Positions 12,941 to 55,255 of a DNA stretch of 64,000 nucleotides are shown here, piece by piece. Below the pieces are notes generated by a model. That model did no database searches. It was not told the DNA's origin and saw only the letters and a list, made by a program, of their open reading frames with translations. The stretch's first letter is position 1; each line of letters starts with the position of its first letter. A program made the position numbers and the translations under genes. Source of the DNA: Gammaproteobacteria bacterium (lineage in GTDB: Bacteria > Pseudomonadota > Gammaproteobacteria > JASBUN01); assembly GCA_030147845.1 (NCBI GenBank), contig JASBUN010000022.1, positions 70,152-134,151 on the forward strand, read 5' to 3'.

Positions 12941-14272
12941 ATGCTAAAAAAATTGACCCTATGGTATTGCCTGTGTCGTCTTATTGGGCTGCGCCGCCGC
13001 CGGCCGATGTTGGCGTCGATGCCTGGTGCACTGCTCGGTTTGCTAATCGGTTTCGGACCCGTCTTGGCCCAAGCCAACGACGTATGGACGTTAGAGCGGA
13101 GTGTTCGGCGAGTTATCGAAAGAGCGCCGGAGGTGCGTGGCGCACAGGCGGCCGTTGACGCCAGACAAGGGGCTTTGCAACAGGCAGGTGTGTGGCCGAA
13201 TCCGCGTATCGAACTACGCGTGGACGATAAGCTGGGCAGAGATGATGGCGCCGGCGGCACGGATTTTAGCCAGTTGTCGGTCAGCCAGCCGTTGCCGTTG
13301 AGCGGCCGCATCGGCTACCAACAGAACGCGGCCGGCGCCGAACTCAATGCCGCTCGCGCCGAACGCCGTTATTTGCTATTACGCGTGGAAACGCAGGTGG
13401 CGCAACGCTATCACGCGTTGCAGCTAAGCGCCGAGCGGCTACAACTGGCGCAACAACGGTTGCAACTTGCCGATGAGCTGCAGCGTATCGGGCGACGGCG
13501 CGAGCGTGCCGGTGAGCTCGCGCGTCTCGAACGGCTACGCCTGGATCTTATCCGGGAGTCTGCGCAGCAGATCCTGGATAAAGCCGAAGGTGCGTACAAC
13601 GAAGCGCTCGGCCGTTTTCGCGCCTATCTGGAACTGCCGGCACAGCGCACACCACAGCTGATACCACTCAAGCCGTTCACCGACTTGCCGTCACTACAAA
13701 GCCTACAGGCGCGCCTGGCGCAGCATGCCGCCTTGCAAGCGGCACGCCAACGGCTGGCGGCGGCGCGCTCCGGCGTGCGTGTAGCGCGCGCCGCACGCCT
13801 GCCGGATCCTGAGCTGCGTCTGTTTCGTGAACGCGACATTCTTGCCGGGCGGCGCCAGCAAGTGACCGGTATCGGCCTGGCAATCACCATTCCCCTATGG
13901 GACCGAAATAACGGCCGCATTGCCGAAGCGCGTTCACAGAGCATCGAGGTGCAGACCCAGTTGCTGGCGTTGGAGCGCGATTTACGCAGCCGTCTGCAAA
14001 AGAGCTTTCTGCATCTACATCACCTGATGCAACTGGGTGATCATTTTCGCACGCGCGTGTTAGTTCCGGCTGACAAGGTCTTTGCGCTGACCCGTAAAGC
14101 GTACGCCATGGGCGAAGTGGAACTACTGGCATTAATCGACGCCAACAACACCTATTTCGATGCCTATGAACGCTATCTGCAATTGCTGCAGCAAGCCTGG
14201 TTGGAGGCGGCGGAGTTGCGTCTTGTCTCCGGACGCCTGCTGGCGACGACAGAACAGGAGCACCGCCAATGA
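12941..14272 (+). CDS. czcC: CzcC-like outer-membrane efflux protein (TolC family)
   Basis: The frame is open further upstream, but MLKKLTLWYC at 12941 is preceded by GGGAG and followed by a signal sequence (ALLGLLIGFGPVLAQA), so I start there (443 residues). The mature part shows two long alpha-helical repeats, with typical OEP features such as APEVRGAQAAVDARQGALQQAG near the N-terminus and TGIGLAITIPLWDRNNG in the second half. It forms the outer-membrane channel of the tripartite pump with the next two gene products. Its stop overlaps the czcB start (ATGA). Confidence 0.92.
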   Translation: MLKKLTLWYCLCRLIGLRRRRPMLASMPGALLGLLIGFGPVLAQANDVWTLERSVRRVIERAPEVRGAQAAVDARQGALQQAGVWPNPRIELRVDDKLGRDDGAGGTDFSQLSVSQPLPLSGRIGYQQNAAGAELNAARAERRYLLLRVETQVAQRYHALQLSAERLQLAQQRLQLADELQRIGRRRERAGELARLERLRLDLIRESAQQILDKAEGAYNEALGRFRAYLELPAQRTPQLIPLKPFTDLPSLQSLQARLAQHAALQAARQRLAAARSGVRVARAARLPDPELRLFRERDILAGRRQQVTGIGLAITIPLWDRNNGRIAEARSQSIEVQTQLLALERDLRSRLQKSFLHLHHLMQLGDHFRTRVLVPADKVFALTRKAYAMGEVELLALIDANNTYFDAYERYLQLLQQAWLEAAELRLVSGRLLATTEQEHRQ

Positions 14273-15381
14273 TTAAGTTTATATTTTTCTACGTCCTTAT
14301 CCCCGTATTTGCGTTGACGTCCATGTCGGTTACAGCGGCTGAAATCGAGTTGACTGCCGCGCAACTTGCCAATGTACGGATTAGCACGACCAGCGTTGCC
14401 ATGCGCAAGGTACAGCCACAATTGGAATTGAACGGTACACTCAGCGCCGATCGACGTAAACGTCACCGTGTCACGCCGGTGGTAGGCGGCATCGTCGTCG
14501 CCTTGATGGCGGTCGAGCATGAAACGGTGCGCAAGGGGCAGGTATTGGCGCGTTTGCGCAGTCATGACCTGGGGCAGGCGCAGGCGGATTATCTGCAGGC
14601 ACTAGCCAGTTTTGAATTAGCGCGTGCCGAGCGCACCCGCATCCAAGGTCTATGGAAAGACGGCATTGTAGCCGAAAGCCGTTGGCTCAACGTCGACAGT
14701 GAATACAAACGCGCGCGCGCCACCCTTGACGCTCGCCGTCGCCTGCTGTCGCTGACGGGCTTATCCGACAGGCAGATCGCAACACTGGCGCGTAAGCCCG
14801 ACCGGCTGGCGGAATTTGCTTTGACCAGCCCCATCGACGGCATGATCACCCGGGTACAAATCGAATCGGGGCAATTGCTCAGCGCCGGGCAGACGGCCTT
14901 CCATGTTGCCGATCTGTCGCGCCTGTGGGCGCAGGTACGCGTTCCGGTGGCGAGCCTGCCGTTGATCAAAGTCGGCGCCGCGGCGGAGGTCCGCGTTAGT
15001 GCGAGTCCGGGGCGTAGCTATAGCGGCGAATTGCAGTCGCTGGGCGGTGAGGTGGAAGCGCAGAGCCAGACTTTGGGCGGGCGCATCGTGGTTGATAATG
15101 CCGACCGCCGCTTGCGTCCGGGTATGTATACGCGCGTCGTTCTCAGTGGAGTAGCCGAACGCGGTCTGATGGTGCCGGCCAGCGCGGTGTTTCGAATCGG
15201 TGACCAGGCATTCGTGTTCCAGGTTTTGAGCGCACGGCGTTTTCTGCCGGTAAAGATCGAGGTCGGCGCGCCGGCGAAAGACTGGATACCCGTGCGCAGT
15301 GGCATCGCCGACGGCACCACGATCGTGAGTGGCGGCGTGGCGGAATTGAAGTCGCACTGGCAATATCAGGGGGGCAAGTAG
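14269..15381 (+). CDS. czcB: CzcB-like periplasmic adaptor of RND efflux
   Basis: The 370-residue membrane-fusion protein has an N-terminal signal peptide ending around TAA, a biotinyl-lipoyl-like hairpin (VGGIVVALMAVEHETVRKGQ), a helical hairpin (QADYLQALASFELARAER), and the second lipoyl half with beta-barrel (ALTSPIDGMITRVQIESG). It bridges CzcA in the inner membrane to CzcC. It lacks the N-terminal His-rich or HMBD extension seen in some CusB/CzcB proteins, so metal delivery may fall to the small upstream His-rich protein. It is translationally coupled to czcC and followed 3 bp later by czcA. Confidence 0.92.
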   Translation: MIKFIFFYVLIPVFALTSMSVTAAEIELTAAQLANVRISTTSVAMRKVQPQLELNGTLSADRRKRHRVTPVVGGIVVALMAVEHETVRKGQVLARLRSHDLGQAQADYLQALASFELARAERTRIQGLWKDGIVAESRWLNVDSEYKRARATLDARRRLLSLTGLSDRQIATLARKPDRLAEFALTSPIDGMITRVQIESGQLLSAGQTAFHVADLSRLWAQVRVPVASLPLIKVGAAAEVRVSASPGRSYSGELQSLGGEVEAQSQTLGGRIVVDNADRRLRPGMYTRVVLSGVAERGLMVPASAVFRIGDQAFVFQVLSARRFLPVKIEVGAPAKDWIPVRSGIADGTTIVSGGVAELKSHWQYQGGK

Positions 15382-15384
15382 GCC

Positions 15385-18473
<3,089 letters not shown>

Positions 18474-18477
<4 letters not shown>

Positions 18478-46606: not shown

Positions 46607-47989
46607 TCAGCCCAAACGTCCAAGCAGTGGTTGGGCGGCCAAGCCGATCGCCAGCGTCAGCAGCAGCGCGATCAGCCAGACTGCGGTCGTCAGCGACGCG
46701 GCCGGTGATGACCCGGATGTCGGCGCGACTGCCGTTTCGGCACGTTGGTACATCGGCACGACGATGCGCAGATAGACGGCTAATGCGAGCACGCTATTGA
46801 TGATGGCGACCACCGCCAGCGCGGTGAAGTGGGCGTCGATGGCGGCACCGAATAACAAAAATTTGCCAACGAAGCCGGCCAGCGGTGGGATACCGACCAG
46901 CGATAGCAGAAATACGACCATGGCGACGCCTTTGAGCGGTGCGCTGCGACCGACACCACGGTAGGTATGCAGCGTTCGGCCGGTGGTCGCGACCACGGCG
47001 AACGCGCCGATATTCATGGCCGCGTAGGCGGCAGCGAACACGATCAGCGATGGCAGCGCCAGCGGACTGCGTCCGAGCGCGACGATAGCGAGCAAAAAAT
47101 AGCCGGACTGAGCGATCGATGAATAGGCCAACAGTCGTATCACATCATTTTGTACCAATGCGGCCAGGTATGCGTAGGTCATGGTCAAAATCGACAGGCC
47201 GGCAATGATGGCCGGCCAAGCGCTGGCCATCGGCACATCCCTCAACACCTGCGCGAGCGCAAAGATAGCACCGATTTTGGTGACTACCGACAGATAGGCC
47301 GCTACCGACACTGGCGCGCCCTGGTAAGCATCGGGCGCCCAAAAATGGAACGGCACCAGCGACGCTTTATAACCGAGGCCGACGATGACCGCCACCAAAC
47401 CGACTGCGGTCGCCAGCGAGGTCGGGTCGAGACGCGCCAAATCATTGAGGAAAGTCGAACCGGTCGCGCCAAACCAATAGGTGAGGCCGAAGATCATGAT
47501 GGCGCCGCTGACCGACCCGAACACGAACAATTTCATAGCGCCTTCGGTGGCGGCATCATTACGCGGATAGGCGACCAGCGCCACCGCACCGAGCGTCGAT
47601 AGCAGCACGCCCAGGACCAGGAACAGCATGTCGCCGGCGGCGGCCAGCAATAACGCGCCCAAGGTGGTGAAGCTGATCAGACTATAGAACGTGCCTTCGC
47701 GATCGCTGTGGCGCAGTTCAGCGCGTGCCAATAATACGCATAACGCGCTCGCCGGCAGCAAAACCAGCTTTGACCAGACACTCAGCGTATCGATCCGATA
47801 GGTCGCGCTGAATGCGGTTGCATGCATACCGATAAAGGCAAAGCTTTGTGTAGCGGCGAGTAACAGTCCAGCCAGCGTCACCAGCAGCGCCAGCCGCGGC
47901 GAACGCAACATTTCTGCGATCAAAGCGCCGACGGCGGCCAGCAGAACGATGATCTCGGGCAATATCAGATAGAGGTCATGCGCCGTCAC
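46607..47989 (-). CDS. nuoN: NuoN-like antiporter subunit of a complex I-like system
   Basis: The 460-residue protein has about 14 membrane helices of the Mrp-antiporter family. The TM7 Lys208 is present (GYKASLVPFHFWAPDAYQG). At the TM5 position, where NuoN normally has Glu (GxELxSL), this protein reads LVLGVLLSTLG, so the paired carboxylate appears lost. The start is GTG 47989 and overlaps the nuoM stop (GTGA). It is the last gene of the operon; it converges on dapB. Confidence 0.93.
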   Translation of the reverse strand: MTAHDLYLILPEIIVLLAAVGALIAEMLRSPRLALLVTLAGLLLAATQSFAFIGMHATAFSATYRIDTLSVWSKLVLLPASALCVLLARAELRHSDREGTFYSLISFTTLGALLLAAAGDMLFLVLGVLLSTLGAVALVAYPRNDAATEGAMKLFVFGSVSGAIMIFGLTYWFGATGSTFLNDLARLDPTSLATAVGLVAVIVGLGYKASLVPFHFWAPDAYQGAPVSVAAYLSVVTKIGAIFALAQVLRDVPMASAWPAIIAGLSILTMTYAYLAALVQNDVIRLLAYSSIAQSGYFLLAIVALGRSPLALPSLIVFAAAYAAMNIGAFAVVATTGRTLHTYRGVGRSAPLKGVAMVVFLLSLVGIPPLAGFVGKFLLFGAAIDAHFTALAVVAIINSVLALAVYLRIVVPMYQRAETAVAPTSGSSPAASLTTAVWLIALLLTLAIGLAAQPLLGRLG

Positions 47990-49455
47990 GGCTGCAGCGC
48001 CATTGTGGTGAGATGGATCACGTTCAACAACCAGGCCGGCGCAATACCGACCAGCACCGTCAAAATCAGCAGCGGGCCTATGGTGAGTAGCTCGCTCGTG
48101 CGCAGGTCACGCAGGCCGCGCCACTGCGCCGGGGTCTCGCCCAGAAACGCTTGGCCGATGGCTTTCAGATACAGGCCGGCCGTAATCACGATGCCGATGA
48201 TCATGACCACTGCGCCCGGCTCGACGCGTAATGTGGCGAGAAAAATCTGGAATTCGGCCGGAAAGTGCGCTAATCCGGGCAAGCCGAGTGAAGCGAAGGC
48301 GGCGATCACGAACGACCAGCCGAGCACCGGCACGACACGCAACAAGCCGCCAAGCTTGCCGAGTTCACGTGTGTCGGTGCGATCTTGAAGCATTCCGACC
48401 AGGAAGAACAGCGCGCCGGTCACCAGTCCATGGCTGATCATTTGCAGTACGGCGCCGTCCAGCGCCAGCGCGCGCAGCCGGGGGTTGAGCGCCAGTGAGG
48501 CGATGGCGACGGCGGCGATGATATAGCCCATATGATTGATCGAAGTGTAGGCGATCAGGCGTTTGAGATCGGTTTGGCCAAGCGCGGCAAAGGCGCCGTA
48601 GATGGCGCTGAACACACCGAATATGAGCACCACCACGGCGGCGTCATGGAAGGCCACAGGCGTCATTTGCAAGGCGAAGCGAATCAATCCATAGGTGCCG
48701 AATTTCAGCATTACGCCGGCTAGCAGGACGCTGCCGGCGGCTGGTGCTTGCACGTGCGCTGCCGGTAACCATGTGTGTAACGGAAACACGGGGGTTTTGA
48801 CCGCGAACGTTATCAGCATGGCGATCATGGCTAACATCGCCGCCGTGCCGGCCAGTGGTGGATGAGCGATCCAGGTGCGCATGTCGAACGTATGCGGCGT
48901 ACTGCCGAGATAGAGGCCGAGTATGGCCAGCAGTAGTGGCAAACTGCCGAGCAGCGTATAGAGAAAAAACATTAATGCGGCGCGACGCCGGTCTTCGTGC
49001 CCCCAACCGGCAATCATGAAATACATCGATACCAGCGATAGTTCGAAAAAGACGTAGAACAAAATCGCGTCCAGGGCGGTGAACACACCGATCGATGCGG
49101 TCTCGAGCAATAAGGCGAGGACGACGAAGGCGTGCGCGCGCTGCTTGAGTTTGGTGGAGTAGATAAAGGTCAGCAAGAACAGCAGCGCGGTCAACAGCAC
49201 CAGCGGCAAGCTGATGCCGTCTACGCCGACGCGATAGGCGGCGCCGATCGAGGGCATCCAGGTGAAGTGCTCCAATTGCGAAAATCCGCCCGCTTGCACA
49301 CCTCGCGACCACATCCACAAGGCTCCGCCCAAGGTCAGCGCACTGGTGATGAGTGCGATCGTATGTGCGACGCGCGCCGGCGCCGAGCGTGATAACAGAA
49401 CCAGAACGGCGCCGACCAGCGGCAGGAATAATGTGATCGTCACTAGGGGAAACAC
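47986..49455 (-). CDS. nuoM: NuoM-like antiporter subunit of a complex I-like system
   Basis: The gene starts at GTG 49455, with AAAGGAG 9-10 bp before it; an upstream extension of the frame overlaps nuoL and is not protein-like. The 489-residue protein keeps the proton-channel pair: Glu138 in TM5 (FYVFFELSLVSMYFMI) and Lys220 in TM7 (FAVKTPVFPLHTWLP). A further Lys lies in the LKRLIAYTSINHMGY segment. It should pump protons or another cation as part of the membrane arm. Confidence 0.95.
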   Translation of the reverse strand: MFPLVTITLFLPLVGAVLVLLSRSAPARVAHTIALITSALTLGGALWMWSRGVQAGGFSQLEHFTWMPSIGAAYRVGVDGISLPLVLLTALLFLLTFIYSTKLKQRAHAFVVLALLLETASIGVFTALDAILFYVFFELSLVSMYFMIAGWGHEDRRRAALMFFLYTLLGSLPLLLAILGLYLGSTPHTFDMRTWIAHPPLAGTAAMLAMIAMLITFAVKTPVFPLHTWLPAAHVQAPAAGSVLLAGVMLKFGTYGLIRFALQMTPVAFHDAAVVVLIFGVFSAIYGAFAALGQTDLKRLIAYTSINHMGYIIAAVAIASLALNPRLRALALDGAVLQMISHGLVTGALFFLVGMLQDRTDTRELGKLGGLLRVVPVLGWSFVIAAFASLGLPGLAHFPAEFQIFLATLRVEPGAVVMIIGIVITAGLYLKAIGQAFLGETPAQWRGLRDLRTSELLTIGPLLILTVLVGIAPAWLLNVIHLTTMALQP

Positions 49456-49469
49456 GCCAGGCGCTCCTT

Positions 49470-51287
49470 TCAGAAATACAGGACGCCGGCGAGCAGCGCC
49501 GCCAGCATGAGGGCCGTGCCGATGACGGCCAGGGCCAGTTCGTGGTGCACCAGACCGTCTTGCAATGCCGCTACTCGGGCGCCGAGACGGCGGCTGCCAT
49601 GCGCCAAGGCGAAGATGGCGCGATCGATACCTTGTTCGTCGCCGCATCGTGCGGCGCGCGCGATGGTCATGCCGAGTCGACCGATGGCAAGTACGCCGGT
49701 ATAGAGACTTAGCTCGAAGCGCGCGCAGAGACGGGCGATGAACAGGACTGGGCGCACGATCAGGGCATCGATGCCGCCGGCGATGGTGAAGCCCTGCTGT
49801 GCCCAGCGATATAACGGTCCGAATAGCCTCGGTGCCGGCACCAACCAGCCGAGTGCCAAACCGATCAACGCGGCGCTGAGCCCCGACACCTGCGCCAAGA
49901 TGGTGGTCGGCAGCGCCGCACCAAGCCATTCTTCCAGCGCTCCGAAGGTAGCGCCGAGCACCGCCGCCAACAACACCACGCCGGCGATACCGGCGCCCAT
50001 CCAGCGCAGCCCGACTACGTGGCCGGCGTGTGTGTCGCCGCGCCACAAGATGCGCAGCGCGCGCGCCATGTAGGCGCCGGTCAACAGTGTACCGGCCAGC
50101 GCCAATGGCGCCAGCAGGTAGGCATGCTCGGCGGCCAGCGCGGCGCCGATAACCGCGTCCTTAGAGAAAAAACCGCTCAGTGGCGGTATGCCCGCCAACG
50201 CCAACGCGGCGACGACGAAGCCCGAAAACACCCAAGCATGGTCGCGACCGACGCCGCGCAAGTTGGTGAATGCAGTATCCTCACGGCTATGCTGAAATAC
50301 GCCGGCGCCAAGGAACAGCGAACTTTTGATGGCGGCATGCGCGATCAGGTGCAACAGGGCCGCCAGTGGTACACCGGCGCCAACGGCCACCAACATGAGA
50401 CCGTATTGGCTCGACGTTGATGCCGCCAGCATACGTTTTAGATCCGCCTCCGCCAGTGCGATCAAGCCGGTAACTACGGTCGTTACGCCACCGACCAAGC
50501 CGACCGCGAGGCGCGCCTCAGGCGGTAGAACGGGGACTACCCGGATCATGAGAATGGCGCCGGCCGCCACCAGGGTGGCCGAATGCAGTAGCGCGGAAAC
50601 CGGGGTCGGTCCGACCATGGCGCGCTGCAACCAGTCGTGCAGCGGCGTCTGTGCCGACTTACCCATGGCGGCGATCAACAACAGCAGGCCGGCCAGCACC
50701 GTGGTCGGGTTGTTGCCGGCGAGGGTGGTGGCGATTGCCGTATCGGCGTGTTGTGCAACGAGCAAAAACACCGCTACATACAAACCCAGATCGGCAGTGC
50801 GCGTGTATAAGAACGCACGGCTGGCCGATGCACCAACGCCAGGTCGTTGGAACCAGAAGCCGATCAACAAATAACTGCTGAAACCGATCAGCTCCCAGGC
50901 CGATAGAAACAGCAGCCAATCGCCCGCCAGCACCAGCGTCTGCATGGCGGCGACAAAAAAGGATAGCAGGGCGAAGAAACGGACTTTTTCCGCGTCCTCT
51001 TTCATGTAGCCGATCGCGTAGACGAACACCAACGCGCCGATGCCGGCGACCACGACCGCCAGCACGGCGGTCAACCGCCCAGCCAGCAGCAGCAGCGGCA
51101 TGCCCGGCAATCCCGGCATGATGACTTGGTATGATGAACCATGCATAACGGCCATCAGCAACCCTGCACTGCTGAGCAGGCTGGCGACGACACCGGCTAA
51201 GGCGAATACCGTGCTCGCACGTCGCAGCAACAAAATGACGGCCGCGGCCGCCAAGGGCGCCAATATGATTGGTGCGATCAAGTTCAT
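49470..51287 (-). CDS. nuoL: NuoL-like antiporter subunit of a complex I-like system
   Basis: This 605-residue protein is near the usual NuoL length, so the C-terminal lateral helix is probably present. Key residues are in place: Glu132 in TM5 (SAWELIGFSSYLL), Lys210 in TM7 (AAMGKSAQTPLHDWL) and the ADLKRMLAASTSSQ segment. I start it at MNLIAPIILAP, whose ATG overlaps the nuoK stop (ATGA). nuoM starts 14 bp after its stop. Confidence 0.95.
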   Translation of the reverse strand: MNLIAPIILAPLAAAAVILLLRRASTVFALAGVVASLLSSAGLLMAVMHGSSYQVIMPGLPGMPLLLLAGRLTAVLAVVVAGIGALVFVYAIGYMKEDAEKVRFFALLSFFVAAMQTLVLAGDWLLFLSAWELIGFSSYLLIGFWFQRPGVGASASRAFLYTRTADLGLYVAVFLLVAQHADTAIATTLAGNNPTTVLAGLLLLIAAMGKSAQTPLHDWLQRAMVGPTPVSALLHSATLVAAGAILMIRVVPVLPPEARLAVGLVGGVTTVVTGLIALAEADLKRMLAASTSSQYGLMLVAVGAGVPLAALLHLIAHAAIKSSLFLGAGVFQHSREDTAFTNLRGVGRDHAWVFSGFVVAALALAGIPPLSGFFSKDAVIGAALAAEHAYLLAPLALAGTLLTGAYMARALRILWRGDTHAGHVVGLRWMGAGIAGVVLLAAVLGATFGALEEWLGAALPTTILAQVSGLSAALIGLALGWLVPAPRLFGPLYRWAQQGFTIAGGIDALIVRPVLFIARLCARFELSLYTGVLAIGRLGMTIARAARCGDEQGIDRAIFALAHGSRRLGARVAALQDGLVHHELALAVIGTALMLAALLAGVLYF

Positions 51288-51595
51288 CCGTTCAAATCCC
51301 GCGCTTCCTCCATCTCCACTGATCCACGGCTGCGGAAACGCGCCACGGCAATGCCGAAGCCTACGGCCATTTCCAAGGCCATGACGGTCATGATGATCAG
51401 CACGAACATTTGCCCGGCATACACGTGCGGATGCAAAAAGCGCCAGAAGGCGACCAGGTTCACCAGTGCACCGGCCAATATCAGTTCCACTCCCATCATG
51501 ATCATGACCAGATTGGTTTGCGACAGCGCACCATATAAACCAATGCCGAACAACAGGGCGCCGGTGACGAGTGCGACGATTAGAACCGCGGTCAT
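51284..51595 (-). CDS. nuoK: NuoK-like subunit
   Basis: The 103-residue protein has three membrane helices. Both conserved carboxylates of NuoK are present: Glu37 (MMGVELILAG) and Glu75 (VMALEMAVGF). They form part of the central ion pathway linking the Q-cavity side to the antiporter subunits. ATGA overlaps occur with nuoJ before it and nuoL after it. Confidence 0.94.
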   Translation of the reverse strand: MTAVLIVALVTGALLFGIGLYGALSQTNLVMIMMGVELILAGALVNLVAFWRFLHPHVYAGQMFVLIIMTVMALEMAVGFGIAVARFRSRGSVEMEEARDLNG

Positions 51596-52173
51596 GACTG
51601 TGCCTCTTCATCCAGTGGCGGTTTGTGTTGTTGGTTCATTGCGGCGGCGGCTGGTTTCTGTTTGCCATACGGACGTCCGTCGACGGCGATCGCGGTGGCC
51701 GCGATCATGGCCGTCAAGATGGTCACGCCGGCGGTTTCAAACAACATCATTGAGCGCCCTAACAGCTCCGTGCCAAGCTCACGCACTTGTTGCGCCGCGC
51801 CCGGTGGAACCGCCGTTGGTTTGCCCCAATCGACCAATATTACGACCGCAATGCTAAGGGTCGTCGCGACCAGCGCAGCGGCGATGGCCAGTCGTTTCTG
51901 ATGGCTCATGTCCATTTCGCCCAAGCCGCCCGGATCCATCATAAACATGACCATGAATATGGCCATGATGCTCATCTCCGTGGCCATCATCATGATTTGC
52001 AGGACGCCGAGAAATTCGGTCTGCATGGCCAGGAACATCGCGCCGAGCGCGGTTTGCGAAAACAACAGCGCCAAGGCCGATCGCATCATCGACGAGGTCC
52101 GAAACACCCATACGCCGAAGGCGACTGCGGCGGCGCCAAAGAAACCGACCAGTAATGACTGCGCCAGGATCAT
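51592..52173 (-). CDS. nuoJ: NuoJ-like subunit with a methionine-rich third helix
   Basis: The 193-residue protein starts at [10 protein letters not shown] (52173), inside the nuoH stop. The layout is NuoJ-like (SALALLFSQTALGAMFLAM..TEFLGVLQI), but the third helix is aberrant. Instead of the conserved Tyr-Ala-Gly-Ala pi-bulge, it reads MMMATEMSIMAIFMVMFMM, and residues 61-89 contain 11 methionines plus Glu66 in the middle of the membrane. In complex I this helix takes part in coupling and in the active/deactive change. Confidence 0.88.
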   Translation of the reverse strand: MILAQSLLVGFFGAAAVAFGVWVFRTSSMMRSALALLFSQTALGAMFLAMQTEFLGVLQIMMMATEMSIMAIFMVMFMMDPGGLGEMDMSHQKRLAIAAALVATTLSIAVVILVDWGKPTAVPPGAAQQVRELGTELLGRSMMLFETAGVTILTAMIAATAIAVDGRPYGKQKPAAAAMNQQHKPPLDEEAQS

Positions 52174-53066
52174 GACAACACCAATACAAGTACGCCGACC
52201 AAGAAGATATTGAGCAACGCCAGCGGGATTCCGAATTTCCACGCCCATGCCAATAGTTGCGCTTCCCGAATGCGCGGCAGATAGTGCCCGGCGACTAACA
52301 TGGCGCTGGCAACGCCGAGTAGTTTCAGCGTGCTCCACGCCCATGCCGGCAACCATGGTCCGTACCAACCACCGAGATACAATACAGTCGTGGCCGCCGC
52401 CAGCGCGGTGATCAGCGCCAGGCGGCCAAAGCGGAATACTGCCAGACGCACGCCGCTGTACTCGGCTTCAACGCCGCCGGCTAACTCGCCCTGCGCGGTC
52501 GGCAGGTCGAAGGGCGGCAAGAACGCCAGCGCCATGGCAGCGATGAAAAACAATACGAACCCCAACGGCTGATAAACGATGTTCCAAAGTTCGGCTTGCG
52601 AGGTAACGATATCGGTGGTCAGCAATGAGCTGGCGCGCATGGCCACGGCCGTGATGGGCATGACGATGAGCATGGAATAGGCCAGCAACTGGCCGAGGAA
52701 ACGCCAACCGCCGATCAAGGCATAGGCGCCGTCCGGCCCCCAGCCGGCCATCAGCAAGGCCACCAATACGTAAGCCAGCGCGGCGTTGATGAACAGCGCG
52801 CCGGTGGCGAGATCGGTGATCATCAGGCCCGGCGCCAAGGGTAGTACGGCGGCGGCCAGGAGCGCCGACAGTAGCAGCAGGATCGGTGCGGTTTCGAAAA
52901 ATATGCGATCGCACTTGCGCGGTACGATCGATTCTCGACCGAGCAACGCCAAGGCTGCGAATAATGGCAAGGCCGCATTTACGCGGCCTGTGCGCAGCGA
53001 TGCCTCGATCACCGCGATGACGTAGATGTACAGCAGCATTGACACCAAGGCAAGAAACACCGTCAT
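52170..53066 (-). CDS. nuoH: NuoH-like subunit lacking the quinone-cavity loop
   Basis: This is a 298-residue homologue of NuoH, shorter than usual. Recognisable are [19 protein letters not shown] and [20 protein letters not shown]. Differences from canonical NuoH: the loop after TM1 with GPNRVGP that lines the quinone chamber is missing; the Glu of the SYE motif is Ser131; and the PEAE carboxylates read PTAQ. Glu194, Glu200 and Glu202 remain. GGAGGTGAT precedes the start, which overlaps the fusion gene's stop. Confidence 0.9.
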
Positions 53067-54877
53067 TGCATCACCTCCCAGGGTGATAAATCCAACGACG
53101 CGACCGCAGTCAGTGCATCACCCAACTCGCATTGCTCAATCAACGATGCCACGCGCGGCAGGTGGCGCGTCGACGGTGTATCCAGCCGCGCGCTGATAAC
53201 ACGCCCCTGATCCAGCGTCATTTGCAGACTTGCGGCGCCGCGCGGCGTTTCTATACTGGCCTGGCCGCTGCCGGATAGATGGTGAAACGCTTCCATATGT
53301 GCAAACGTACTGGACGCGTCGATAACGCCTACGGCGTCGATCAACATGGCGCTGTTGGTTAACTCGGCGAGACGAATACGGAGCCGTTCGAGTGCATCGC
53401 CGTGCGGACGCACCACCGTCTCGAAGTTGAGATCCTGATACGCCGGTTCTTGCAGACGAAGGTCATCATAGGCGCCGGCGGCGCGTGCAACCGGGCCGCG
53501 CAAGCCGCCGTCATCCATCAGCACACCGATGCCGCGGAGCCGTTGCTTTAACAGTGGAGTGCGTTGCAGCCGTTGTGTCAGGGCGACGAGTTGTGGACGT
53601 AGCTGTTGCAGCTTCCGTACGTCGGCGTTGCGTGCCGCAAGCTGCAGCACGGCGGCACGACGCGCCAGCCAGCCGAAACCGATTTGTTGACCGAATTGCG
53701 CCAGCCAACCGAGATGACTACAAATGCGTTCCCGTTCCAGCGCGCCGACGCGACCGCGGATGCTATTGGCGTCTAACACTGCATTGGCGGCATTTTCCAA
53801 CGCGCGATAGACCAGCAGCCGGTATGCCAGCGGCGCCAAACGATCGGTTTGACTGATACGTTCGACGAACGTTGCGACCTCATCAGGCTCGGTTAGCCGT
53901 GCCTGCTCGATGCCGACCGGGGCGCTGGCCTGCGCTCGCGCTACGTTGTCACCATCGAGCGTGAGTGTCAGCGTCAAGCCGCCGGGCAGTCCGGGGAATA
54001 GGGGGCCGAACGGTACCTCGAGCCAATCCATTTGCAGGCCATCGCTGCCGCGTGGTAAATCGCGAGTGACCTCCACCATCGACATAAAGTCCATATCCAT
54101 ATCGTCGTGATTCATTTGCCCATGGTCATCGCTATGATCGTCGCCATGTTGCTTGTCGGCATGCGCGTGCTCTGCGCTGTCCTTGTGCTCGGGTTGACCA
54201 TGACTCATGGCAGCGTGGTCCATGCCAGCATGATCTTCGTCCGTGCTCTCAGGTCGCACGTGCGCTTCGGCATGCGCGTGGTCTGTGCTTTCTTTGTGCT
54301 CGGGTTGACCATGACCCATGGCAGCGTGGTCCATGCCGGTATGATCGTCGTGTTGGGCTTCTCGGGGGATCAGCGTCATGCCGCAGCGTGGGCAGGTACC
54401 GGGTTCGTCCCGTATTACGTCCGCATGCATAGGACAGGTGTATTCGGTGCGCGTACTCAGTATCGCCGGTTCAAAATCGATCGCTGTGGTCTGAAATGCG
54501 CCGTCGGCCAAGAGCACGCGCAACTGACGCACGCCTTCGAGTAGTTCGCGTTGCGACAGTCCGAGGCGGATGTCGGCCGATGGCAGGGGAGACAGTGGTT
54601 CGTCGCCGAGCGCCAAGACGATGCGCGGGCGCATCATTTGTGCATATAAAACAGCGGCTGCTTGGCACAGCGCCGGCGGCAATGCGCCGACCACCAACAA
54701 CACGCTGGCGTGGCGTGGCGAGGCCACCGAGCGTAATCCAGCGGCGCCGACGTCCAGCCCATGCAGGCGCGCAATTTCCAAACCGGGAACGACGAGGGTG
54801 CCGAGATCGCGCGCCATAGCGCGCGCAAGCCATCGGCGCACACCGTTGTCAGTGTATGCGCGGGCGCCCGAAATCAC
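53063..54877 (-). CDS. NuoB-like / heavy-metal-binding / NuoD-like fusion protein
   Basis: The 604-residue protein starts at GTG 54877, directly after the nuoA stop. Residues ~25-125 follow the NuoB fold ([20 protein letters not shown], then [11 protein letters not shown], then [12 protein letters not shown]), but all four N2-cluster cysteines are gone. Residues 145-175 are a heavy-metal-binding domain (CPMH at 148, CPRCGM at 162). Residues 176-268 are His/Met/Asp/Glu-rich with a duplicated block. Residues ~285-515 resemble NuoD/group 4 hydrogenase large subunit ([37 protein letters not shown]). The GPQHPSxHG segment reads [10 protein letters not shown], and the quinone Tyr is replaced (DRLAPLAYR). 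I know of no named protein of this design. Confidence 0.88.
54155..54345 (-). repeat. Tandem His/Met-coding repeat inside the fusion gene
   Basis: Two ~80 bp copies (54155-54234 and 54266-54345) recur with a 111 bp (37-codon) period. Both encode [16 protein letters not shown] followed by an acidic, His-rich segment. DNA identity is high, suggesting recent duplication within the metal-binding linker. Confidence 0.85.
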
Positions 54878-55255
54878 TCATTGTCTCCGCAACGCGCCCT
54901 GACTCCAGCCGTACAATAGCCCCAGGAACAGAATGCCGAGGAAGACGCCCATGTCGAGCAGCGCGACCACGCCTTCCTGCTTGTAGACCACGGCCCACGG
55001 ATACATGAACGCCATTTCCATGTCGAAGGCCAAAAACAGGAGTGCATAGCCGAGATAGCGCGCGTGGTAGCGAACCCACACCGGATCGCGTGACATTTGC
55101 CCGGCGCTGGCCGGCACGTCCTTGCCCGGTTCCGGCCGCGTGCGGCCGATGGCGCGCGCAAATCCGTATAGGCCGGCGACGACGCCGACGCAAGCCAGCG
55201 ACAGAATCAGCAGTACGATGCCGTTATCGGAGGTGGTCATGGTTGGATGCTTCAT
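54878..55255 (-). CDS. nuoA: NuoA-like subunit without the ECG loop motif
   Basis: The 125-residue protein has three membrane helices. I start it at MKHPTMTTSD (55255); MTTSD at 55240 is an alternative. The second helix is canonical (FDMEMAFMYPWAVVYK). The loop before it, which in NuoA/ND3 carries YECG and contacts the quinone site, instead reads PGKDVPASAGQMSRD with no cysteine. It is the first gene of the operon, immediately followed (no gap) by the fusion gene. Confidence 0.92.
   Translation of the reverse strand: MKHPTMTTSDNGIVLLILSLACVGVVAGLYGFARAIGRTRPEPGKDVPASAGQMSRDPVWVRYHARYLGYALLFLAFDMEMAFMYPWAVVYKQEGVVALLDMGVFLGILFLGLLYGWSQGALRRQ

Follow-up and report, generated by a model that had tools for sequence, protein, structure and literature searches.

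A complex I-related operon that has lost redox and quinone features and may serve soft-metal transport

What does a complex I-like operon do when the parts that take up electrons and handle quinone are gone? The question is raised by a 64,000-nucleotide stretch of a Gammaproteobacteria bacterium genome (GCA_030147845.1, contig JASBUN010000022.1, positions 70,152 to 134,151; the whole stretch is hereafter called the window). Eight intact, coupled open reading frames (ORFs) run along its minus strand from 55255 down to 46607 in the order A, B/D fusion, H, J, K, L, M, N, as described in a first-pass annotation. Judged from sequence, we regard it as an evenly balanced call that their product is a non-redox relative of complex I that would move a soft metal, most likely Cu(I), across the inner membrane in a proton-coupled manner.

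Each of the eight proteins was assigned by Pfam and NCBIfam to its own subunit family; among the NCBIfam models listed, the curated cut-off was passed by M (TIGR01972) and K (NF004320) only. Genes for NuoC, E, F, G, and I were absent from the operon, in line with the first-pass annotation, and C and I were also absent from the operons of annotated relatives. A complete A–N nuo operon, whose C, E, F, and G were confirmed by Pfam, was found in the same genome (G000; 93.8% complete, 68 contigs) on contig C55 at about 139.0–153.5 kb, starting about 14 kb away. The eight-gene operon is therefore an extra system and not the complex I of this cell.

To describe the losses, we compared 45 family operons (28 type I, 7 type II, and 10 type III, type I being the group of fusions with a heavy-metal-binding domain, HMBD) with 12–16 complex I rows. 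A remnant (L007), two broken operons (L081 and L087), and the split-frame NuoM of L131 were dropped before counting, as were the duplicates L010 (a near copy of L005), L009 (the same stretch as L135), and L150 (the same place as L063). Contig ends removed NuoA from L145 and L149 and NuoN from L140, and the survey of fusions left out L005, L014, L015, L016, L017, L065, L086, L132, L143, L145, L148, and L149. Because the rows are related and some are near-identical (L004/L012/L016, L013/L014/L017, L065/L066, and L088/L131/L132), row counts represent non-independent events.

The NuoA-like subunit of the window (54878–55255; PF00507, E=8e-24) carries PASAG in place of the complex I motif [YF]E[CS]G in the alignment. 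E[CS]G was lost in all 17 type I rows shown, and L067 retains PFESG, the same as E. coli. The fusion (53063–54877; an ORF of 604 residues with a GTG start, its domains assigned by Pfam and NCBIfam) begins with a NuoB-like domain (residues 1–145, 54443–54877; NCBIfam NuoB, E=2.5e-5; matches of profile A1 to MbhJ and NDUFS7) that lacks the N2 cysteines. The late two were replaced by another residue or a gap in 33 of 33 fusions, and the early CC pair was judged absent from the count of a single Cys (C71) in the window domain and not located by motif search. The fusion ends with a NuoD-like domain (residues 264–604, 53063–54088; PF00346, E=1e-18; top PDB sequence match MbhL, 6cfw_L), in which the [16 protein letters not shown] and SLDL elements were kept and the only cysteines are C386 and C583, with no CxxC. 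The quinone His and the His preceding it (HPxxHG) were absent from all 33 fusions; the quinone Tyr was absent from all 19 type I and two type III fusions and gapped in the other 12.

Membrane subunits have changed as well. The GPNRVG loop of NuoH (52170–53066; PF00146, E=9.8e-57) was absent from all 12 family proteins aligned (A3) and present in both complex I rows. Relative to E. coli, the window NuoH has Ser for E157, Thr for E216, Gln for E218, and Arg for E241, with E228 kept. Across the family, E241 was lost in 45/45 rows; E157 was lost in all 28 type I rows and kept in 7/7 type II and 1/10 type III rows. E216 was Asp in 13/45 and E218 was kept in 3/28 type I rows, although gaps in types II and III make the alignment of this segment uncertain. 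NuoJ Y59 was lost in 45/45 rows and the TM5 glutamate of NuoN, E133, in 44/44. The losses that the first-pass annotation had noted in NuoA, the B- and D-like domains, and NuoH thus stood, and the absent cysteines and quinone residues turned up in none of the family members examined.

The ion-pumping residues were almost all conserved, again as that annotation had it for L, M, and K. In 44–45 rows, NuoL (49470–51287; PF00361) kept E144, D178, K229, H254, K342, and K399; NuoM (47986–49455, GTG start; TIGR01972, 473.8 bits) kept K234, K265, and E407, with one row gapped at E407; NuoN (46607–47989, GTG start; PF00361) kept K247 and K395; and NuoK (51284–51595; PF00420) kept E36 and E72 in E. coli numbering (E37 and E75 in the window), with one Asp. 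NuoM E144 was Asp in types II and III, and NuoN K217 was Glu in two of the seven type II rows.

The many lost catalytic residues, together with copies that are broken or reduced to remnants, would also fit a complex I copy decaying toward loss. We consider this hardly credible, since the same residues are retained in 45 operons that form one clean clade and have spread on plasmids across phyla. In trees of NuoH and of NuoL+M+N (45 rows comprising 30 family and 15 complex I members; FastTree, SH-like support, midpoint-rooted for display), the family stood apart from all complex I rows with a support of 1.0, and types I and II each formed one clade. The ratio of nonsynonymous to synonymous substitution rates (dN/dS) was well below 1 where dS was adequate: 0–0.23 in 24 of 24 gene comparisons (L139/L142, L139/L141, and L136/L137) and 0.06–0.31 in 8 of 8 comparisons for L146/L147. 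The very close pairs L131/L132 and L065/L066 gave 14 scattered values (0–1.35), of which five exceeded 0.35. Retained residues, a single clade, and purifying selection thus contradict decay or pseudogene status as a general account and uphold the earlier proposal of a repurposed ion pump, with the low dN/dS in all 24 comparisons coming from three of the six pairs.

Interruption of the operon in relatives, which had been named beforehand as a sign against repurposing, was seen in some copies, and most were intact. Beyond the remnant L007 and the broken operons L081 and L087, the fusion is interrupted in L017 (split into two frames), in L086 (by an IS3 insertion), and in L143 (where no intact frame for it was seen). 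NuoM is interrupted in L131 and, going by the annotation, perhaps NuoH in L006. In L081, Halomonas sulfidaeris plasmid pBAA-803-A, the operon lies in many short frames, and that of its near relative Halomonas sp. KO116 (L088) is intact.

The same gene order with the same losses recurred on plasmids and chromosomes of Alpha- and Gammaproteobacteria and Actinomycetota. Used as a query against 72,556 plasmid records, the fusion protein matched 14, of which 12 had the operon, one (Xanthobacter) had a remnant consisting of A and part of the fusion, and one (Pontibacter) matched in the HMBD stretch only. The order A-fusion-H-J-K-L-M-N was annotated in Sulfitobacter, Paracoccus, Roseovarius, Thioclava, Nitratireductor, and Rubrobacter. 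The NuoH proteins of these operons share 65–72% identity with one another, against about 39% at most with ordinary NuoH. Further branches were found on Actinomycetota plasmids (Pseudonocardia, Arthrobacter FB24, Mycobacterium, Rhodococcus, Curtobacterium, and Pseudarthrobacter) and in Roseivivax, Halomonas, and several other genomes. A plasmid search with NuoJ gave 28 records, 25 in the branches of the three types (two of them broken) and three of a seven-gene relative described below; NuoH added six Mycobacterium plasmid records. The region was inspected in 24 of these 34 records, and the other ten were assigned by similarity. The NuoJ profile (A4) separated the family (at least 211 bits) from ordinary NuoJ (at most 75 bits) without overlap and identified carriers in 9 of 398 genomes of the phylum (taken to be Pseudomonadota) and 16 of 369 of the class (taken to be Gammaproteobacteria), one with two copies; the host genome was counted in both samples. 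A genome-contig scan with a single sequence as the query returned one locus, and the fusion and NuoJ profiles detected no relative in scans of viral contigs.

We next consider what could have taken the place of the redox input. Between its B- and D-like domains the window fusion contains one HMBD (residues 146–171, 54365–54442; PF19335, E=1.4e-12), followed by a His/Met-rich linker (residues 172–263, 54089–54364) in which two GMDHAAM(G/S)HGQPEHK-type repeats can be read directly. The HMBD occupies the slot that NuoC has in known B/C/D fusions (model PRK13292), and the HMBD part of the fusion profile matched Legionella CopA (3rfu). All 19 type I fusions examined carried the domain in one to seven copies, with 11–56 His residues between the B and D parts. 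The six type II linkers examined had no HMBD and contained His/Met runs of varying length, and the eight type III linkers examined were short, with the motif GMMGG(V/T)PYGR(P/M)M(A/P)M. A His-rich NuoJ tail (at least four His) was present in 10/10 type III, 2/7 type II, 0/28 type I, and 0/15 complex I rows. The length of the B/D arm ranged from 302 to 851 residues.

A second set of changes lies within the membrane. We defined a gained-Met column as one in which Met occurs in 90% or more of the family rows and in no more than 20% of the complex I rows. Such columns numbered 11 in J, 3 in K, and 2 each in A and M, with none in H, L, or N. Treating columns as independent, A/J/K had 16 of 431 such columns vs. 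2 of 1932 in H/L/M/N (p=1.3e-10), and Met accounted for 16 of 42 fixed family-specific changes in A/J/K vs. 2 of 74 in H/L/M/N (p=8e-7). The overall Met content of L, M, and N was below the complex I level (27 family rows), indicating that the gain in A/J/K is not a matter of general composition. All 11 NuoJ columns were Met in 45 of 45 rows.

In the Met-rich NuoJ (51592–52173; PF00499), residues M62, M63, E66, M67, M70, M74, M78, M79, M87, M89, and H91 (window numbering) were invariant in 15/15 sequences. Residues 61–91 (51901–51993, by alignment) hold a stripe of Met on transmembrane helix (TMH) 3, the gating helix of complex I (M63, M67, M70, M74, and M78, with E66) and, in the loop after it, an invariant Met-x-Met-x-His (M87-x-M89-x-H91). 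The stripe, whose five positions were picked after inspection, corresponds to E. coli 59, 63, 66, 70, and 74 and spans about 80 degrees of helix turn. The new Glu, at E. coli A62, was present in 44 of 44 readable rows, and the His, at column 87, in 45 of 45. NuoK of the window gained M72 and M76, which flank E75, and M31; NuoA contains FDMEMAFMYPW, with two family-specific Met at E. coli A82 and L85. In E. coli complex I, H-Glu157, A-Asp79, and the J-Gly61 carbonyl at the π-bulge of J-TM3 share one cavity, and J-Glu55, K-Glu36, K-Glu72, and N-Glu133 form a chain (PMC8357420). Rotation of ND6 TM3 is described in a review as the gate that lies between the quinone site and the antiporters, with the ND3 and ND6 loops belonging to the arm interface (PMC7613608). 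As placed by adjacency along the aligned subunits, the gained Met residues map to or around this coupling site.

The seven-gene relative lies on a plasmid of Methylobacterium fujisawaense. The plasmid carries seven genes, A-H-J-K-L-M-N, with no B/D gene and with A and H overlapping, and the NuoJ of this cluster has a His/Met-rich loop of about 120 residues after TMH3 and keeps Y59 and G61. Met was found in 6 of the 11 J columns, those that align securely being 25, 58, 66, 70, 74, and 138, and in 2/3 K and 2/2 A columns; L K399 and N K217 are Glu. This relative branches outside types I–III, and the whole family including it was split from complex I with a support of 0.999. Two further plasmids had NuoH 82–85% identical to its own, and among 396 genomes of the phylum no NuoH was that close (best, 38% identity). 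Upstream of its cluster (L171, 6769–8178) lies a gene for a 469-residue protein with a very Met-rich C-terminal part. The soluble arm thus appears dispensable. The intact members examined share Met in J, K, and A and, at the A/J/K end, a stretch rich in His, Met, or both.

These features bear on an unlikely but serious alternative, in which the operon encodes a metal-gated, Mrp-like H+/Na+(K+) antiporter: copper bound to the arm would switch the exchanger and protect the proton gradient, and the metal itself would stay put. Such a device would account for the kept antiporter residues, for metal-binding domains in the soluble arm, where a regulator is expected, and for the copper genes near many copies reported below. 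It leaves unexplained an invariant Met gain within the membrane subunits J, K, and A, much of which the seven-gene relative, lacking the arm, still has.

Many family loci have copper genes in their neighborhood. Copper markers were found at 9 of 24 chromosomal family loci vs. 2 of 20 control stretches of the same genomes (p=0.044), a comparison in which the family set had about half the flanking DNA of the controls and two loci, L147 and L148, come from one genome; ordinary nuo loci had none (0/11). By type, markers accompanied 7 of 8 type III and 2 of 16 type I chromosomal loci. In the genome with L147 and L148 (G556), two type III copies occur with CopB close to each. Plasmid loci had a marker in 19 of 23 cases, but 11 of these loci had supplied marker proteins, making the count partly circular; among the remaining loci it was 8 of 12. 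Grouping of the flanks without a preset list gave CopB (six loci) and CopA-type multicopper oxidase (five loci) as the most recurrent proteins. In Rubrobacter tropicus, genes for a P1B ATPase, a CsoR-type regulator, and a copper-binding protein run co-directionally into nuoA with gaps of about 40–100 bp; in Curtobacterium a metal-binding protein and a P1B ATPase, and in Arthrobacter FB24 a multicopper oxidase, run into nuoA. In M. paragordonae, nuoN is followed by genes for an ArsR/SmtB regulator and a P1B ATPase. In the class sample, CopB was present in 14 of 16 carriers vs. 103 of 353 non-carriers (p=4e-6). The link to metal, offered as speculation in the first-pass annotation, thus gained support from the HMBD and His/Met modules, the Met gain in A/J/K, and the neighboring copper genes.

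Recurrent multicopper oxidases, Met/His sites that suit copper, and an origin in complex I might also suggest a copper redox machine, in which Cu sites replace the FeS clusters and quinone, and Cu(I)/Cu(II) electron transfer through the B/D arm and a Met/His chain would still drive proton pumping. We judge this decidedly improbable. No ninth gene accompanies all copies in the flanks compared, the arm that would carry the chemistry varies widely in length and is missing from the Methylobacterium plasmid, and NuoN has lost E133, with E218 of NuoH also mostly replaced. Electrons are an unlikely input once the FeS clusters, quinone site, and N-module have gone.

The same anatomy could also serve a soft-metal importer that loads copper for cuproproteins, as sequence does not encode direction. 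We consider inward supply improbable, because the neighbors are resistance genes and regulators expected to answer excess copper (CsoR-type, CueR, CopA/CopB, and P1B ATPase). Export is the likelier direction, given that genes of periplasmic copper detoxification, those for multicopper oxidase CopA and for CopB, are among the partners.

For the proton-coupled movement of a soft metal that we favor, the following path can be proposed, on the assumption that the subunits assemble as one complex. The cytoplasmic B/D arm, its redox chemistry gone, would collect metal through the HMBD and through segments rich in His and Met, a role that may fall to the NuoJ tail or loop in other branches. The metal would be handed to the invariant M-x-M-x-H in the TMH3–4 loop of NuoJ and would then pass along the TMH3 Met stripe and the new Glu, beside the Met-flanked NuoK Glu and the Met/Asp/Glu of NuoA, to the periplasm, with L, M, and N supplying the proton side. 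Three features recur in the family: a metal-binding stretch located on the arm or beside it; Met in NuoJ, NuoK, and NuoA, joined in types I–III by Glu and His; and an intact proton-antiporter arm. In its fullest form, which we put forward tentatively and at slightly below even confidence, this would be a new class of metal transporter: the E-channel region (NuoA/J/K) would carry a Cu(I)-like soft metal and NuoL/M/N would couple it to the proton gradient. Plasmids would have spread the class between distant bacteria, and its metal-collecting part would have been exchanged several times, taking the form of HMBD repeats, a His/Met linker, a His-rich NuoJ tail, or a NuoJ loop; one lineage would have dropped the whole peripheral arm.

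Several observations weigh against this proposal. Most of the Met changes sit on the stem of one clade and therefore represent a single evolutionary episode, and the seven gained TMH3 Met taken jointly are only weakly one-sided (p about 0.05 vs. random picks). Of the 11 J Met, the seven-gene relative has only six in secure columns, and it lacks the new Glu as well as M63 and M67. AlphaFold models of the fusion and NuoJ, built from two sequences only (the window and L009), had predicted local distance difference test (pLDDT) values of 46.4 and 47.1, too poor for side-chain placement, and no conclusion rests on them. Type I chromosomal copies seldom have a copper marker and mostly stand alone, that of the window included: no marker was found from 18.5 kb to 64 kb of the window or in the adjoining stretch L061, the nearest copper genes being CusAB-like (14269–18477), and CopB of the host genome lies on another contig. 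When the 14 of 16 carriers with CopB were compared with 12 non-carriers of the same families, hand-picked from the genomes listed (others may exist), 8 of the 12 also had it (p=0.35), and much of the CopB link may thus reflect habitat or ancestry. Metals other than copper could bind to the HMBD, His-rich, and Met-rich segments, and Cu(I) export is already served by P-type ATPases.

We compared the system with known relatives of complex I. The likeness to complex I itself comprises subunits A, H, J, K, L, M, and N, the gene order, the pump Glu/Lys residues, and B- and D-like domains by sequence. The family differs in having no C, E, F, G, or I, N2 cysteines, quinone His/Tyr, or GPNRVGP, in the loss of NuoN E133, and in its HMBD/His/Met segments and Met-rich NuoJ/K. 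Complex I occurs as the 14-subunit Nuo and as an 11-subunit form without NuoEFG (PMC11238625).

Mrp antiporters are a non-redox use of NuoL/M/N/K/J-type subunits and are defined by the MrpA–G set, without NuoA, NuoH, or B/D-like proteins. The eight-gene system lacks that set and has NuoA, NuoH, a B/D arm, and separate L, M, and N, with A, H, and the NuoD-like domain assigned by Pfam/NCBIfam, so that membership in Mrp was rejected; we know of no comparable metal module in Mrp. Group 4 membrane-bound hydrogenases and their Ehr and Mbx relatives resemble the family in that the fusion profile scored best with MbhL (6cfw_L) among solved structures. They differ from the window operon, which has no CxxC in its D domain, has a NuoA and the complex I gene order, and has no FeS subunit. 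Membership in the group 4 hydrogenases was rejected on the absence of the [NiFe]-site cysteines, C386 and C583 being the only Cys of the D domain; Ehr enzymes also lack these cysteines, so that this trait does not set the operon apart from Ehr. A second complex I-related cluster in the host genome (C52, 55000–73000; L062) encodes two antiporter-like subunits, a weak NuoH-like match, a 612-residue NuoD-like frame that has no CxxC motif, and a NuoB-like protein containing seven Cys, and looks like a group 4 hydrogenase-related (Ehr-like) complex.

The DAB/DabAB carbon pumps likewise reuse the antiporter module of complex I without redox chemistry, placing a DabA-type zinc protein beside a NuoL-like subunit. 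No DabA-type family was found among the eight proteins, which include seven membrane subunits, and this assignment was rejected. Met ladders for Cu(I) are known from CusA- and CTR-type transporters and LpCopA, whose membrane scaffolds are unrelated; no P-type ATPase or resistance-nodulation-division (RND) family occurs among the eight proteins.

In complex I, a reaction in the soluble arm drives proton pumping in the distant membrane arm, and how it does so is still debated. A relative that keeps the pump with a different input would allow coupling to be studied without electrons or quinone and would test the NuoJ TMH3 gate as a general input port. Non-redox relatives of complex I are already known, and metal transport, if shown, would be a new kind. 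It would also mean an unrecognized metal-handling system on plasmids of marine, soil, and some clinical bacteria. Family members are largely annotated as 'NADH-quinone oxidoreductase', and respiration calls drawn from such annotation would be wrong for this family if the metal proposal is right. Among the matches listed from 5.39 million open full texts, we found no paper on the system; subscription papers lie outside this set, and an earlier mention in a survey is possible. The main text of the pMAH135 plasmid paper, as far as available, mentions neither NADH nor copper nor heavy metals, and the available portion of one Cupriavidus paper mentions ordinary nuo genes only.

A promoter scan gave no signal above chance, and terminator-like sites numbered 26 vs. 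9.4 in shuffled sequences, most of them inside genes. Some neighbors recurred at several loci. In KO116 (L088), genes annotated egtB and egtD (ergothioneine synthesis) lie directly downstream of nuoN; EgtB frames 84–99% identical follow the operon in L131–L133, and EgtD is intact in L131 and L132. Upstream of the operon and on the other strand, the alphaproteobacterial plasmids L014, L015, and L017 carry an additional nuoN fragment (141–393 residues) next to DUF6629 and sigma-70 genes, and DUF6629 also precedes the operon in L005, L010, and L012.

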